Source: Parvibaculum sp. (GTDB taxonomy: Bacteria; Pseudomonadota; Alphaproteobacteria; Parvibaculales; Parvibaculaceae). Taken from it: DNA of 38,197 bases. The notes below the pieces were generated by a model. That model had not been told where the DNA came from. It did no database searches and saw only the letters and a program-made list of their open reading frames with translations. The position numbers and the translations under genes were made by a program. How positions within the stretch are numbered: position 1 is the stretch's first letter; every line of letters starts with the position of its first letter. Below are positions 19,379 to 24,582 of this stretch, one piece after another. The DNA lies in assembly GCF_002684405.1 (NCBI RefSeq), contig NZ_NYVD01000106.1:1-38197 (forward strand), in the 5' to 3' direction.

Positions 19379-21130
19379 TCAGATCTCCTGGGGATCGCCC
19401 GGTTCGGCGGCCTCGCGTTCGCGCCCGCTGACGCGCCAGCGCGCCACGATCTGTTCCAGCCCCCGGCGGTCGAGATTGGGCGCGCTCCATGATTGCGAGA
19501 AGGCCGCGTTCACATTGCGCGGCAGCGTGTCGGCCGCCAGATCGTGGAAGCGGATACGCATCGGCATGGCCACGCCCTGCCCGAGAATGATCGCTTCCCG
19601 GTCGCCGAGCAGCGGCAGGAAGTCGAGAAGGTCGAGCGCGCCGTCATGCGTATTGGCCCGCATCACCTGCTGGTCCCGCTCGGTGGACAACCGCATGGCG
19701 ACCGCCGTGGAACATTGCGACAGGATGGTCGGGTCGAGTTCGGAGGGCCGCTGGCTCACCAGCGCGAGCGACAAGCCGTATTTGCGGCCTTCCTTGGCAA
19801 TACGCGACAGCGCCTGGCGCGTCGGCATGAACTTGTCGCCGCCATGCGCCGGCGCATATCGATGCGCCTCCTCGCAAACCAGAAGCATGGGAAGCCCGCC
19901 CTTGCTCCAGACCGCCAGATCGAAGGCGATGCGCGAAATCACCGACACCACCACATCGAGGATTTCCGGCGGCACAGTCGAAAGATCGATGACGGTGATC
20001 GGTTTTCCGTCGCTCGGTATACGGAAGAGCTTGCCCAGCACATCGGCCATATTGTCCTGAACGGTCAGGCTGCCGAACATGAAACTGTAGCGCTGGTCGC
20101 TGACCAGCGTTTCGATACGGCTCTTGAGCCGGCGATACGGCACCGTCGAGCGTGTGCGTTCGAGCTTGCCGAGCTGGTCGTCGATATAGAACAGCACGTC
20201 CGAAAGACGGAAGGGTGTCGGCGTCTCGACGGTGATGCCTCCCGTCTCGCCGACGCGGCGCGCAATGGCGGCGCGGCCCGACGAGGCATCGTGAAAGCGC
20301 CGCTTCGCATAGAGAACCGCATCGCTCAGGATTTCCACTTCGGCATCGTAATGGCCGTCATGGCTGACAAGCGCCGCCGTCAGTTCCTGAAAGTTCAAAA
20401 GCCAGAACGGCAGATTGAGATTGCGGGCATTGATGAGTTCGGCCTGCGCGCCGAACGCGCTGGGATACTCGTTGTGAATGTCGAGCACCACCACATGCGC
20501 ATATTCATGGCCGACGAGCACGCGCTGCAGGATACTCGTCAGCGCGCACGACTTGCCGCAGCCGGTCGTGCCGACAACGATGAAATGCTTGGCCAGAAGA
20601 TCGTCGAGAAGCAGTCGCGCCGGCACATTGCTGTCCTGAAAGAGCGTGCCGACTTCCACCGTCGCCTTGCCCGGCTGGTTGTAGACGCGCGTCAGGTCGT
20701 GCCGGTCGGCGAGCAGGACGGTATCGCCAAGCGTGGGAAGGCTGGAAACGCCACGCTGGAATTTGAGCCTTCCGTCCTGGCTGTCGACGACCACTTCGCC
20801 GGCCAGATTGATCTCGACCAGCCCCATATCGACCTGATCGTCCTCGTCGGAGGGCGCGGGCGCGCTGACCGCCGAAACGATACCGACGACCTGCCGCTCG
20901 CGCGTGGGCACTTTCACCAGTTGCCCGATCTCGATACGCCGGCGAAAGCCGCCCTTGTCGCCAGGCGACTTTTCCATCACGGCCACGGCCTGCGCGCCGG
21001 AAACCGAAACGATATGCGCGATCCGCACTGGCGGCGAGGCCGGTTTCCCCCGCCGCTCCGAACCGTCGCCGCCGACTTTCATGCCCGAACCGTCAGGTGC
21101 CTGACGAGGTGCTGCAACGCCCTTTGTCAC
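19379..21130 (-). CDS. HerA/DUF87-like ATPase
   Basis: A 583-residue P-loop ATPase of the HerA/FtsK class. An N-terminal HAS-barrel-like region (about 35-165) precedes the Walker A GTTGCGKS at residues 187-194. The Walker B sequence LLVCEEAHRY lies in the C-terminal half, with the motif QRPSELDPTIL after it. Such proteins form hexameric DNA translocases, often with the NurA nuclease; no NurA is seen nearby. The ATG at 21128-21130 overlaps the histidine-kinase TGA by four bases (ATGA), so the two are translationally coupled. Coupling a translocase-like ATPase to a sensor kinase is unusual and its meaning is unknown. Confidence 0.9.
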   Translation of the reverse strand: MTKGVAAPRQAPDGSGMKVGGDGSERRGKPASPPVRIAHIVSVSGAQAVAVMEKSPGDKGGFRRRIEIGQLVKVPTRERQVVGIVSAVSAPAPSDEDDQVDMGLVEINLAGEVVVDSQDGRLKFQRGVSSLPTLGDTVLLADRHDLTRVYNQPGKATVEVGTLFQDSNVPARLLLDDLLAKHFIVVGTTGCGKSCALTSILQRVLVGHEYAHVVVLDIHNEYPSAFGAQAELINARNLNLPFWLLNFQELTAALVSHDGHYDAEVEILSDAVLYAKRRFHDASSGRAAIARRVGETGGITVETPTPFRLSDVLFYIDDQLGKLERTRSTVPYRRLKSRIETLVSDQRYSFMFGSLTVQDNMADVLGKLFRIPSDGKPITVIDLSTVPPEILDVVVSVISRIAFDLAVWSKGGLPMLLVCEEAHRYAPAHGGDKFMPTRQALSRIAKEGRKYGLSLALVSQRPSELDPTILSQCSTAVAMRLSTERDQQVMRANTHDGALDLLDFLPLLGDREAIILGQGVAMPMRIRFHDLAADTLPRNVNAAFSQSWSAPNLDRRGLEQIVARWRVSGREREAAEPGDPQEI

Positions 21131-21996
21131 GCTTCACCGCCTTTTTCACCTTGGGACGCCGCCTTGTTGGTCGCAGGCAGCGTGAATACGACTGTGGTGC
21201 CCTGTCCGGGCTCGCTGGAAATATGGAACTCGCCGCCATGCAGCCGCGTCAGCGCCGCGGCGATCGGAAGCCCCAGACCGGTGCCTTCCTGACTGCGCGA
21301 GAAGGCCGACTCGACCTGGCCGAACGGCGTCATCGCCCTGGCAACCTGCGTTTCGTTCATGCCGATACCGCTATCGGCCACGGCGAAGGAGACGCTGTTG
21401 TTCCGGTTGCTCGCAACGACCAGCACGATCCGCCCGCCCACGGGCGTAAACTTGTGCGCATTGGACAGGAGATTGATTAGGATCTGCTTCACCCGCCGCT
21501 CGTCGAGCATCAGCGGGGGCAGGTCCGGCGTCACCTTGACCTCGAGCGCCTGGCTCTTCTCGCCGATCCTCGGACGCACCATGGAGACGCAGGATTCCAC
21601 GATCTCCGCCGGATCGTGCCGGCCGAGATCGAGTTTGAAATTCCCGCTCTCGATTTTCGAGATGTCGAGAATATCGCCGATAATGTTGAGAAGGTGCCGC
21701 CCCGCGCCGGAAATATGGGTGGCATATTCGACCACCCGATCCTGCTGGGCGGCGGTGTCCTGCATGTGCTGGATGAATTCGGAAAAGCCGATAATGGCAT
21801 TGAGGGGCGTTCTGAGTTCATGGCTCATATTGGCCAGAAACTCCGATTTCGCGCGGCTGGCGAGGTCGGATTCGAGCTTGGCTGCGCGCAGCGCCTCCTC
21901 GGAGCGCCGCCGCGACATCAATTCGCCCATGTTTTCCGTGTACTGAGAGAGAAGCGAACTTTGCCGCCGCTTCCGCCCCATACGCTCCGCATACAT
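21127..21996 (-). CDS. Soluble sensor histidine kinase
   Basis: A 289-residue kinase without a membrane segment or recognisable input domain. A short N-terminal coiled region (about 12-50) leads into the H-box SHELRTPLN with His59, followed by the N-box NLLSNAHKF, G1 DSGIGM, and G2 GTGLGL. The order and sequence resemble the PleC/DivJ type common in alphaproteobacteria. No response regulator is adjacent, so its partner is elsewhere. The start is either ATG 21996 (GGGGAC upstream) or ATG 21981. The end overlaps the HerA-like gene by four bases. Confidence 0.92.
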   Translation of the reverse strand: MYAERMGRKRRQSSLLSQYTENMGELMSRRRSEEALRAAKLESDLASRAKSEFLANMSHELRTPLNAIIGFSEFIQHMQDTAAQQDRVVEYATHISGAGRHLLNIIGDILDISKIESGNFKLDLGRHDPAEIVESCVSMVRPRIGEKSQALEVKVTPDLPPLMLDERRVKQILINLLSNAHKFTPVGGRIVLVVASNRNNSVSFAVADSGIGMNETQVARAMTPFGQVESAFSRSQEGTGLGLPIAAALTRLHGGEFHISSEPGQGTTVVFTLPATNKAASQGEKGGEA

Positions 21997-22187: not shown

Positions 22188-22685
22188 CTAATCCAGGGCG
22201 TTTTCGTTCTGCTCGCCGGTCCGGATCCGGATCACCCGCTCCAGCGGCGTGACGAAAATCTTGCCGTCGCCGATCTTGCCCGTATGGGTGACCTTCTCGA
22301 TCTCGGCCAGCGCCTTGTCCACCATGCCGGAGGGCACGGCGACATCGATCCGCAGCTTGGGCACGTCGGTCACTTCATATTCACGCCCGCGATAGATTTC
22401 CGTCTGCCCCCGCTGGCGGCCGAAACCGGCCACCTGCGTCTTGGTGATCCCTTCGATCCCCAGCGCCACCAGCGCATCGCGCAGCTCATCATACTTATGG
22501 GGCCGGATAATCGCCGTGATCATGCGCATGGGAAATTCCTGGTCGTATTGAAGGCCATAATGGACGAGCCGCCGGATCGCCTCCGACCGGGAGGGCAGGT
22601 CGGACTGCGCCCGTCTCCATTGATCCACCAGATCGTTGAACTCCCTGGAGGCGACGAGCTGGATGCGCTGATCCAGTTTTTCCAT
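22188..22685 (-). CDS. Ribbon-helix-helix/PII signalling protein fusion
   Basis: A 165-residue protein with two domains in one frame. Residues 1-50 look like a ribbon-helix-helix DNA-binding domain (KLDQRIQLVASREFNDLVDQ, then SRSEAIRRLVHYGL). Residues 53-165 are a complete PII protein: GFGRQRGQTEIYRG, the T-loop Tyr103 (equivalent to the uridylylated Tyr51 of GlnB), and TGKIGDGKIFV with ERVIRIRTGE near the end. ATG 22685 has GGAG at 22693-22696. An internal ATG at 22529 has AGGAA six bases upstream and would yield a stand-alone PII. PII senses ATP/ADP and 2-oxoglutarate, so the fusion may let carbon/nitrogen status control DNA binding directly. No amt or glnA gene is adjacent. Confidence 0.88.
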   Translation of the reverse strand: MEKLDQRIQLVASREFNDLVDQWRRAQSDLPSRSEAIRRLVHYGLQYDQEFPMRMITAIIRPHKYDELRDALVALGIEGITKTQVAGFGRQRGQTEIYRGREYEVTDVPKLRIDVAVPSGMVDKALAEIEKVTHTGKIGDGKIFVTPLERVIRIRTGEQNENALD

Positions 22686-22854
22686 GAAACCACTCCGGCG
22701 CGGAGCCGAATTCGTCAGAATCCGCCCGCCTGACTCGACTGTCACATGATGAGGCCGGCCCGGCGTGAGTGACCTAACCCCCTGCTATTCTTGACTTTCT
22801 AGCATCCGACGGGGGCCCTGTCCAAACTTTGTGAAATCGCGCCAGAAGCTGATA

Positions 22855-22885
22855 TTGACAAACTTACACATCTTACCCATATAAT
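22855..22885 (+). promoter_or_regulatory. Consensus promoter boxes for the YRG-repeat gene
   Basis: Perfect TTGACA (22855-22860) and perfect TATAAT (22880-22885) are separated by 19 bases, two more than ideal. The start near 22892 gives a leader of about 83 bases with a CGGACC/GGTCCG hairpin (22894-22913). Confidence 0.7.
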
Positions 22886-22974
22886 GCTTGCAACGGACCG
22901 GAAGGGAGGTCCGGAACGGAACAGCAAAGGCCCGCGCCAACCGCATTGAGAGGCCGGCCGATTTGGAGGATGCA

Positions 22975-23163
22975 ATGATGGACGACGAACTGAACTATCG
23001 CGGCGCGCATCATCATGGCGAAGCGAAGAAGGGCCCGAAGGGCAAGCCGACCGACATGCACTATCGCGGCACCGACTTCCGCTCCGACAAGCAGCAGCAC
23101 GCCGAAAGCCCTAAGAAGCGCGACCATGAGGGCCTGCTCTATCGCGGCGTGCAGCAGCACTGA
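22975..23163 (+). CDS. Small YRG-repeat protein, unknown
   Basis: A 62-residue hydrophilic protein, rich in His, Lys, Arg and Asp, with no membrane segment. Three copies of a short motif are spaced along it: LNYRGAHH, MHYRGTDF and LLYRGVQQ. The tandem YRG motif recalls cyanobacterial DUF4278 proteins, but I cannot confirm a relation. GGAGG (22965-22969) precedes ATG 22975; a second ATG follows at once. A longer frame opens at 22888, but it lies inside the hairpin leader and lacks a ribosome-binding site. The strong promoter suggests an abundant product. No function can be given. Confidence 0.75.
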   Translation: MMDDELNYRGAHHHGEAKKGPKGKPTDMHYRGTDFRSDKQQHAESPKKRDHEGLLYRGVQQH

Positions 23164-23373
23164 CCTTTGGTATCGGACGTGTCCGGGGCGTTACCCGGAC
23201 GTAACTTGCTCGGATGCCGCCGCCGGCGCAGCATCCCGGCCGCTTCCCCCAGGGAGCACGACCAACAATAAAAAGCCGGACCAGACTCGAAAGGCCACTC
23301 CATGCGCCGGCACGCGCGGGAGTGGCTTCTGTTTGTCCGAAGCCGGAAAAGATGAAGCGATTTCAGGGAAAAG

Positions 23374-23449
23374 TGGTGCCGCTTGGGTGACTCGAACACC
23401 CGACCCCATCATTACGAATGATGTGCTCTACCAACTGAGCTAAAGCGGC
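23374..23449 (-). tRNA. tRNA-Thr, anticodon CGT
   Basis: The 76-base minus-strand gene includes CCA. The acceptor stem pairs GCCGCTT with AAGCGGC, the anticodon stem CATCA/TGATG encloses TTCGTAA, and the T-arm is GGGTG/CACCC around TTCGAGT. Anticodon CGT reads ACG threonine codons. Confidence 0.97.
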
Positions 23450-23583
23450 CCGCATGGCAGGCGTTTCGAAAACGCCGCCGAAAGAGGCCCTCAAATAACG
23501 CGGCGCGCGCCCTTTGGCAATATCCCTGCGACAGGGAAACGCGCAAGCCGCGAAGATTTTCCCGCAAAGACGCGGACGCCACC

Positions 23584-24582
23584 CTAAGGGGCGTCCGGCA
23601 AGGCAGGCTTCGCGGTCCCGCCCAGCGCGAAACTCAGAAACCCTCGCACATCCGCCGCGCTTTTTTCCGGCACCTCTTCCATTGGCACATGCCCCGCATC
23701 GGGATAGGTGACGATTTGCGCCTGCGGAATACGCTTCTTGAACGCCGCCGCCACGGAAACCGGAATGAGATGGTCCTGCGCGCCCCACATCACCAGCACC
23801 GGCACCTCGATCTCCGGCAGCCTTACGGCGAGGCTGTCGTCGTCCGGCTTGAAACCGGCGAACCGAAGGGCCGTCGCCCGGCGATTGCCGTCGTAAAGCG
23901 TGAGATCGTAATAGCGGTCCACCATCGCCGGCGTCACCTTGGACGGATCGGCGAAGACGCTCTTCACGCCTTCCTCGACGAGGGCGCGCGGCGTTACCCA
24001 GCGCATGACGACGCGCCCGATGGAACTGCTGGCGAGTTGAAAGGCGAGCGGCGCCTTCTCGTCCTCGGAATGCCGGCGCGGAATACCGGCGGAATCGACA
24101 AGGATCAGCGCCGAGACCTTATCCGGATGGTCGACCGTATATTGAGCGGCAACCCCGCCGCCCATGGAATTGCCGCCGATAGCGAAACGGTCCATGCCGA
24201 GCTTCACCATCACCTCATCGACGAAATCGGCCATCCCCTTGCGGCTGTAATCGTCGCCCGGCACGGCCCCGGTGAGCCCGTGTCCCGGCAGGTCCATGGT
24301 CACGATACGGTAGCTGTCGCCCAGTTGCGCCGCCCATGGCCCCCAGGTCTGGAGCGAGGCGTTGGACCCGTGCAACAACACAAGCACCGGCCCGGCCTCA
24401 TCGCCCTGCACCCGCACATGCGCATCCGCGCCTCCCGGCAGCTCGATGAACCGCGATGGCGGCTGCGCATATTCGGCAACGAGTTCATCCCTGGGAATGT
24501 CGAAGCGGACCGCCGCGATGGCAATCACGACCAGCGCGGCCAGGACCAGCCCTGCGATCCCCCAGACAAAGCGTTTCACCAT
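23584..24582 (-). CDS. Membrane-anchored alpha/beta hydrolase
   Basis: A 332-residue alpha/beta hydrolase. An uncleaved N-terminal hydrophobic segment (about residues 5-26) anchors it. The oxyanion motif LLHGSNAS, the nucleophile elbow GNSMGG, an acid in WGAQDHLIP and the His in DAGHVPMEEVPE form a complete catalytic set. The sequence resembles the lipase and C-C bond hydrolase types; the substrate is unknown. Its start overlaps the HemY-like gene end by seven bases, so it is the last member of the hem operon by position, though its task may be unrelated to haem. Confidence 0.9.
   Translation of the reverse strand: MVKRFVWGIAGLVLAALVVIAIAAVRFDIPRDELVAEYAQPPSRFIELPGGADAHVRVQGDEAGPVLVLLHGSNASLQTWGPWAAQLGDSYRIVTMDLPGHGLTGAVPGDDYSRKGMADFVDEVMVKLGMDRFAIGGNSMGGGVAAQYTVDHPDKVSALILVDSAGIPRRHSEDEKAPLAFQLASSSIGRVVMRWVTPRALVEEGVKSVFADPSKVTPAMVDRYYDLTLYDGNRRATALRFAGFKPDDDSLAVRLPEIEVPVLVMWGAQDHLIPVSVAAAFKKRIPQAQIVTYPDAGHVPMEEVPEKSAADVRGFLSFALGGTAKPALPDAP

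Follow-up and report, generated by a model that had tools for sequence, protein, structure and literature searches.

In a 38,197-nucleotide stretch of Parvibaculum DNA (contig NZ_NYVD01000106.1; the whole stretch analysed is called the window below), one gene joins a ribbon-helix-helix (RHH)-like head to a complete PII sensor domain. We propose, with a probability of roughly two in three, that its product is a one-component, locus-specific repressor of the neighbouring DUF4278 gene that responds to nitrogen and energy status; we infer the DNA binding, repression and ligand response from sequence. PII proteins are among the most widespread signalling proteins, and to our knowledge they are understood to act only by contact with other proteins. 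If this reading is true, a conserved PII that carries a DNA-binding head would be a one-component carbon/nitrogen sensor and a compact candidate for a 2-oxoglutarate/ATP-responsive switch. The paired DUF4278 gene offers a target open to testing and a starting point for understanding DUF4278, a family that, as far as we know, still lacks a clear function. The open-access literature that we searched contained no relevant description of PII fused to an RHH or other DNA-binding domain. RHH regulators are a known kind, and what appears to be new is their combination with PII as the sensor.

An intact fusion of an RHH-like segment and PII

Encoded on the minus strand, the fusion gene runs from an ATG at 22685 to a TAG at 22188-22190 and specifies 165 amino acids. 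It was recognized from its open frame and from the conservation of its length and sequence in several alphaproteobacterial lineages. The plus-strand reading of 22188-22685 was irrelevant, as the coding frame is on the minus strand. Residues ~1-50 (22536..22685, minus) form the RHH-like segment, with the strand candidate DQRIQLVAS, helices at 14-26 and 33-50, and the motif SRSEAIRR. Residues 53-165 (22191..22529, minus) form the PII domain, with a T-loop motif YRGxEY and Tyr103 as the equivalent of PII Tyr51.

An earlier note on this DNA had described a single unbroken frame leading from an RHH-like segment into a complete PII domain with Tyr103, GKIGDGKIFV and GFGRQRG. The 165-codon frame bears this out, the same fusion is intact in other genomes, and all three features are found in the PII part. 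The frame error between the domains that the note had named as a possible refutation is excluded, with the frame uncut across Parvibaculum and the other lineages. Every uncut locus encodes 164 or 165 amino acids with the frame continuous into PII. Of 28 named genome loci, 27 have the frame intact and one (L046) is interrupted by a contig end; the length is constant in 17 Parvibaculum genomes. The fusion is therefore neither a sequencing frameshift nor a product of chance.

Pfam P-II (PF00543) matched residues 53-158 over model positions 1-102 of 102 (E=3.4e-26, 92 bits against a cut-off of 25), the closest solved chain was E. coli GlnK (E=6e-37), and Foldseek returned PII matches. NCBIfam gave a PII match only, so annotation would list the protein as an ordinary P-II regulator. 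The equivalents of PII R9, Q39, Y51, K58, R101 and R103 were invariant in 19 aligned members. The Lys90 equivalent is kept in the window protein and replaced in the Neomegalonema/Rhodobacteraceae members (L042, L051 and L052), suggesting that ligand use may differ in the latter. The same genome also carries an ordinary glnB before glnA and an ordinary glnK before amtB, which makes the fusion a third, specialised PII paralogue.

The earlier note had also suggested that an internal ATG at 22529, preceded by AGGAA, could yield a free PII as a second product. This ATG exists, and the corresponding Met53 was invariant in the 19 aligned members; two products are unsupported, as the AGGAA is particular to this species and a near twin. 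The invariance of Met53 may just as well be a leftover or reflect a structural role.

Distribution and conservation

Seventeen Parvibaculum genomes out of 27 encode the fusion, with sequence identities of 74-100%; the contig of one carrier (G005) begins at residue 29 and covers only residues 29-164. Conservation across related genomes, a check proposed in the earlier note, was found in Parvibaculum, Hyphomonadaceae, Neomegalonema/Rhodobacteraceae and OCS116/PS1. Named carriers include P. indicum, Henriciella mobilis, a Hyphomonadaceae MAG, Neomegalonema MAGs, a Rhodobacteraceae MAG and the marine PS1/OCS116/MED-G09 genomes. Among 19 diverse aligned members, 30 of the 51 head columns were invariant, including SEAIRRLV and DQRIQLVAS (identical in all 19), and conservation of the head was at least equal to that of the PII part. 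When compared with 14 ordinary alphaproteobacterial PII proteins, the PII domains of the fused proteins formed one group (branch support 98/98), which is consistent with a single fusion event.

A phage origin of the whole fusion was rejected: none was found in viral contigs, and the phage collection gave one non-significant RHH match (E 0.2). A plasmid search with the whole protein returned only ordinary PII among the matches listed.

Downstream of the fusion gene in the window, a histidine kinase gene (21127-21996) and a HerA-like ATPase gene (19379-21130) lie on the minus strand. They were rejected as fusion partners, since the pair also occurs in six fusion-less Parvibaculum species and is thus conserved independently of the fusion. 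In L053-L061, genes for a thioredoxin-like protein (WCEPC, ~311 amino acids) and a 217-residue protein follow within a few bases downstream of the fusion, and in OCS116/PS1 they are probably co-transcribed with it. Upstream of the fusion locus, a cobalamin riboswitch (minus strand; L053 7061-7236 and L061 7437-7615) precedes a gene resembling TonB-type receptors.

Nature of the N-terminal head

RHH_1 was the only Pfam family found for the head. It was detected in 9 of 15 members and never above the Pfam cut-off; in the window protein the match was weak (E 0.09 at full length and 0.015 for the segment alone; 13.2-15.7 bits against a cut-off of 20.5). Using hhalign, the head together with two standalone relatives aligned with Pfam-detected alphaproteobacterial RHH proteins (columns 6-50 to 5-47, score 21.3, E 2e-4). 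As a control, 60 column shuffles of the fused set scored at most 17.0; the fused members alone, unshuffled, reached 20.8, over just 19 columns. A PHROG transcriptional-repressor family matched all 15 members (best E 4e-4). A free-standing 57-residue relative of the head is encoded among phage-like genes (L095, 1486-1659, minus; profile E 5e-22), and its RHH_1 match covers nearly the whole model (E 0.006). This protein is a possible donor of the fusion head.

Structure prediction gave helices at 14-26 and 33-50 and, in the full-length monomer model, an extended start of low confidence, which fit a strand-helix-helix order. RHH strands form only in the dimer, and in a monomer model of the 51-residue fragment the N-terminal strand was modelled as a helix. 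Foldseek with this fragment model found no solved RHH protein and no match whatsoever, a result that is uninformative. A PDB profile search with the RHH segment gave chance matches only.

The head might instead be a protein-interaction or oligomerisation extension, in which case the fusion would be an ordinary protein-acting PII and the promoter boxes described below would belong to another regulator. Such a reading would accommodate the subthreshold RHH_1 scores, the lack of a Foldseek match and the usual action of PII through proteins. However, the colinear profile match to RHH proteins beats all 60 shuffled controls, and the standalone relative among phage-like genes matches RHH_1 almost end to end. 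The strand and SRSEAIRR are invariant, and the conserved box occurs at the fusion locus alone in genomes with the fusion gene. We consider a non-DNA-binding head unlikely. The assignment of the head as an RHH domain is moderately supported by these sequence comparisons, and we regard it as very probable.

The adjoining DUF4278 gene

Divergently from the fusion gene, a DUF4278 gene occupies 22975..23163 on the plus strand. It starts at ATG 22975 or 22978, is preceded by GGAGG at 22965-22969, and encodes 61-62 amino acids with three YRG motifs (PF14105: 30.0 bits, E=7e-7, cut-off 25.3). A tRNA gene (23377-23449, minus; the anticodon reads CGU, Thr) lies between it and an alpha/beta hydrolase gene. 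A small protein of 49-75 amino acids with exactly three YRG motifs adjoins the fusion in 27 of 29 loci, although some of the distant neighbours score below the PF14105 cut-off (e.g. 16.5 bits in OCS116). The gene is divergent in Parvibaculum, Hyphomonadaceae and Neomegalonema/Rhodobacteraceae; in OCS116/PS1 it lies on the same strand, ~0.6 kb upstream of the fusion. DUF4278 is rare in the class, being above cut-off in 4 of 385 sampled genomes, and the Parvibaculum genomes with DUF4278 above cut-off are exactly the 17 with the fusion. No DUF4278 gene was found near the two ordinary PII genes of the genome, and a wider scan gave only the window copy.

Several loci depart from this arrangement. 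In G306 (L106/L094), two tandem DUF4278-like three-YRG genes (L106 1492-1656 and 1658-1843) lie just upstream of the fusion gene. Two OCS116-type loci (L060 and L061) keep the fusion with no recognisable three-YRG/DUF4278 gene upstream; a GTGTGTAACTTA box still seen in L061 at -319 may be a remnant. In genus g125 (L107 and L108), alphaproteobacterial three-YRG DUF4278 proteins occur without the fusion and adjoin a hemF-like gene.

The cyanobacterial glutamine-synthetase inactivating factor IF17 has DUF4278 as its N-terminal part, and glutamine riboswitches in cyanobacteria are located mainly before DUF4278 genes (PMC6316151). Transcription of gifA and gifB is repressed by NtcA under nitrogen shortage (PMC7760959). 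We found no glutamine riboswitch before the DUF4278 gene in window positions 22500-23600 at E up to 10, nor in eight other loci at the gathering score, and this form of control was rejected for the present locus.

DUF4278 and the PII T-loop tip (YRGxEY) have the motif YRG in common; the likeness is short, was noticed post hoc and serves as a lead only. One reading built on it treats the fusion and the DUF4278 protein as a closed pair, in which the small three-YRG protein would bind to the fusion, or compete with the fusion T-loop, and exert feedback on its own repression, in a toxin-antitoxin-like or anti-repressor-like manner. All 27 small proteins have exactly three YRG motifs, matching the three YRG T-loops of a PII trimer, and the two genes are almost constantly adjacent. 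Nevertheless, the likeness is limited to a short motif, and similar DUF4278 proteins exist in L107 and L108, where the fusion is absent, and in cyanobacteria. We regard this reading as very improbable. A bolder reading would make the fusion the first PII to serve as a transcription factor in its own right. Its partner, the DUF4278 protein, would mimic the T-loop tip and vie with PII for GlnD, for AmtB or for the fusion itself, the locus being a self-contained nitrogen-sensing feedback device. We regard this as rather improbable.

Boxes in the DUF4278 promoter

The DUF4278 promoter was read directly at 22855..22885 (plus), with TTGACA at 22855-22860 and TATAAT at 22880-22885. Its spacer is 19 bp, outside the range of a promoter scan that allowed spacers of 16-18 and found none. 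The spacer contains a putative operator, TTACACAT-C-TTACCCAT (22864..22880, plus), which consists of two tandem boxes in 9-bp register. The earlier note had named no DNA target, and had missed the divergent DUF4278 gene and these promoter boxes as the likely one.

The DUF4278 promoter of every lineage contains TTACACAT boxes in 9-bp register; in OCS116 the box faces the other way and reads ATGTGTAACTTATGTATCATATGTAA. Boxes with no more than one mismatch occur in the background at 0.037 per 100 bp. A 20-base box-pair pattern, allowing up to two mismatches in 18 fixed positions, occurred once in each of the 17 fusion-bearing Parvibaculum genomes and in none of 10 others; with one mismatch in 14, the pair was also found once per fusion-bearing genome. 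An additional inverted box stands 35 bp upstream in other Parvibaculum species, and no such box is recognisable in the window. The fusion, DUF4278 and the box pair are thus confined to the same 17 of 27 Parvibaculum genomes. As the three are linked, gain or loss as one block and shared descent partly explain this co-occurrence, and part of the box conservation could be promoter conservation because the boxes overlap promoter elements. The informative observation is the lack of further boxes elsewhere in these Parvibaculum genomes, which suggests a local regulator.

These data also bear on whether the fusion is a DNA-binding regulator with a wider target set or an activator role, DUF4278 being one target among others. 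Although both activation and repression are known for RHH proteins, and pattern searches would miss degenerate sites, the box pair occurs once per genome by either pattern, and its position inside the -35/-10 spacer suits repression. We consider a wider or activating role unlikely and favour a locus-specific repressor that probably switches the DUF4278 gene off directly.

Proposed regulation

In the proposed mechanism, the RHH head, separated from a PII sensor of GlnK/GlnB type by two or three linker residues, would bind the tandem boxes between -35 and -10 of the DUF4278 gene and repress it; its own promoter is probably under the control of the fusion as well. When the PII part binds ATP/ADP and 2-oxoglutarate, the geometry of the RHH heads would change, which would couple DUF4278 expression to the nitrogen and energy state. 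GlnD was present in the five genomes tested, including the one that the window comes from, so uridylylation of Tyr103 is possible and could provide an extra input. The PII-fused repressor would give the same kind of input as cyanobacterial nitrogen control of DUF4278/gif genes. Solely by analogy with cyanobacterial gifB, the gene may be repressed at high 2-oxoglutarate and released in nitrogen excess.

The earlier note had supposed that the fusion could act on DNA without a partner kinase. The first half gains indirect support from the conserved operator-like site in the neighbouring promoter. The absence of a partner kinase is not quite the issue: GlnD is present, and the partners of ordinary PII are of several kinds. 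The assembly that the note had put forward, two PII trimers sharing three RHH dimers, is hypothetical.

Comparison with known systems

Like GlnK and GlnB, the fusion has a complete PII domain with T-loop, Tyr51 equivalent and ligand residues, its nearest relative among solved chains being E. coli GlnK; it differs in its N-terminal RHH-like head, its status as a third paralogue and its separate grouping.

In NikR, an RHH head at the N-terminus precedes a small ligand-sensing domain of ferredoxin-like fold (ACT-like, metal). The NikR likeness drawn in the earlier note holds for the layout, an RHH-like head followed by a small ligand-sensing domain, but does not extend to membership, as the C-terminal part is PII (ATP/ADP/2-oxoglutarate type, of a trimeric family) with no nickel-binding ACT-like domain. 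The putative boxes are tandem 9-bp repeats, whereas NikR recognizes a palindrome.

The fusion shares an RHH-like segment with Arc/CopG-type repressors of phages and plasmids, and the nearest standalone relative of the head is the 57-residue protein encoded among phage-like genes. In contrast to those repressors, it carries a metabolic sensor and is tied to a chromosomal nitrogen-linked gene.

Finally, cyanobacterial gifB/IF17 and other DUF4278 genes are under nitrogen-linked expression control (PMC6316151, PMC7760959), as we propose for the DUF4278 gene here. The window DUF4278 protein is without the C-terminal part of the inactivating factor, and where cyanobacteria use a glutamine riboswitch, a PII-fused putative DNA-binding protein appears to take its place.
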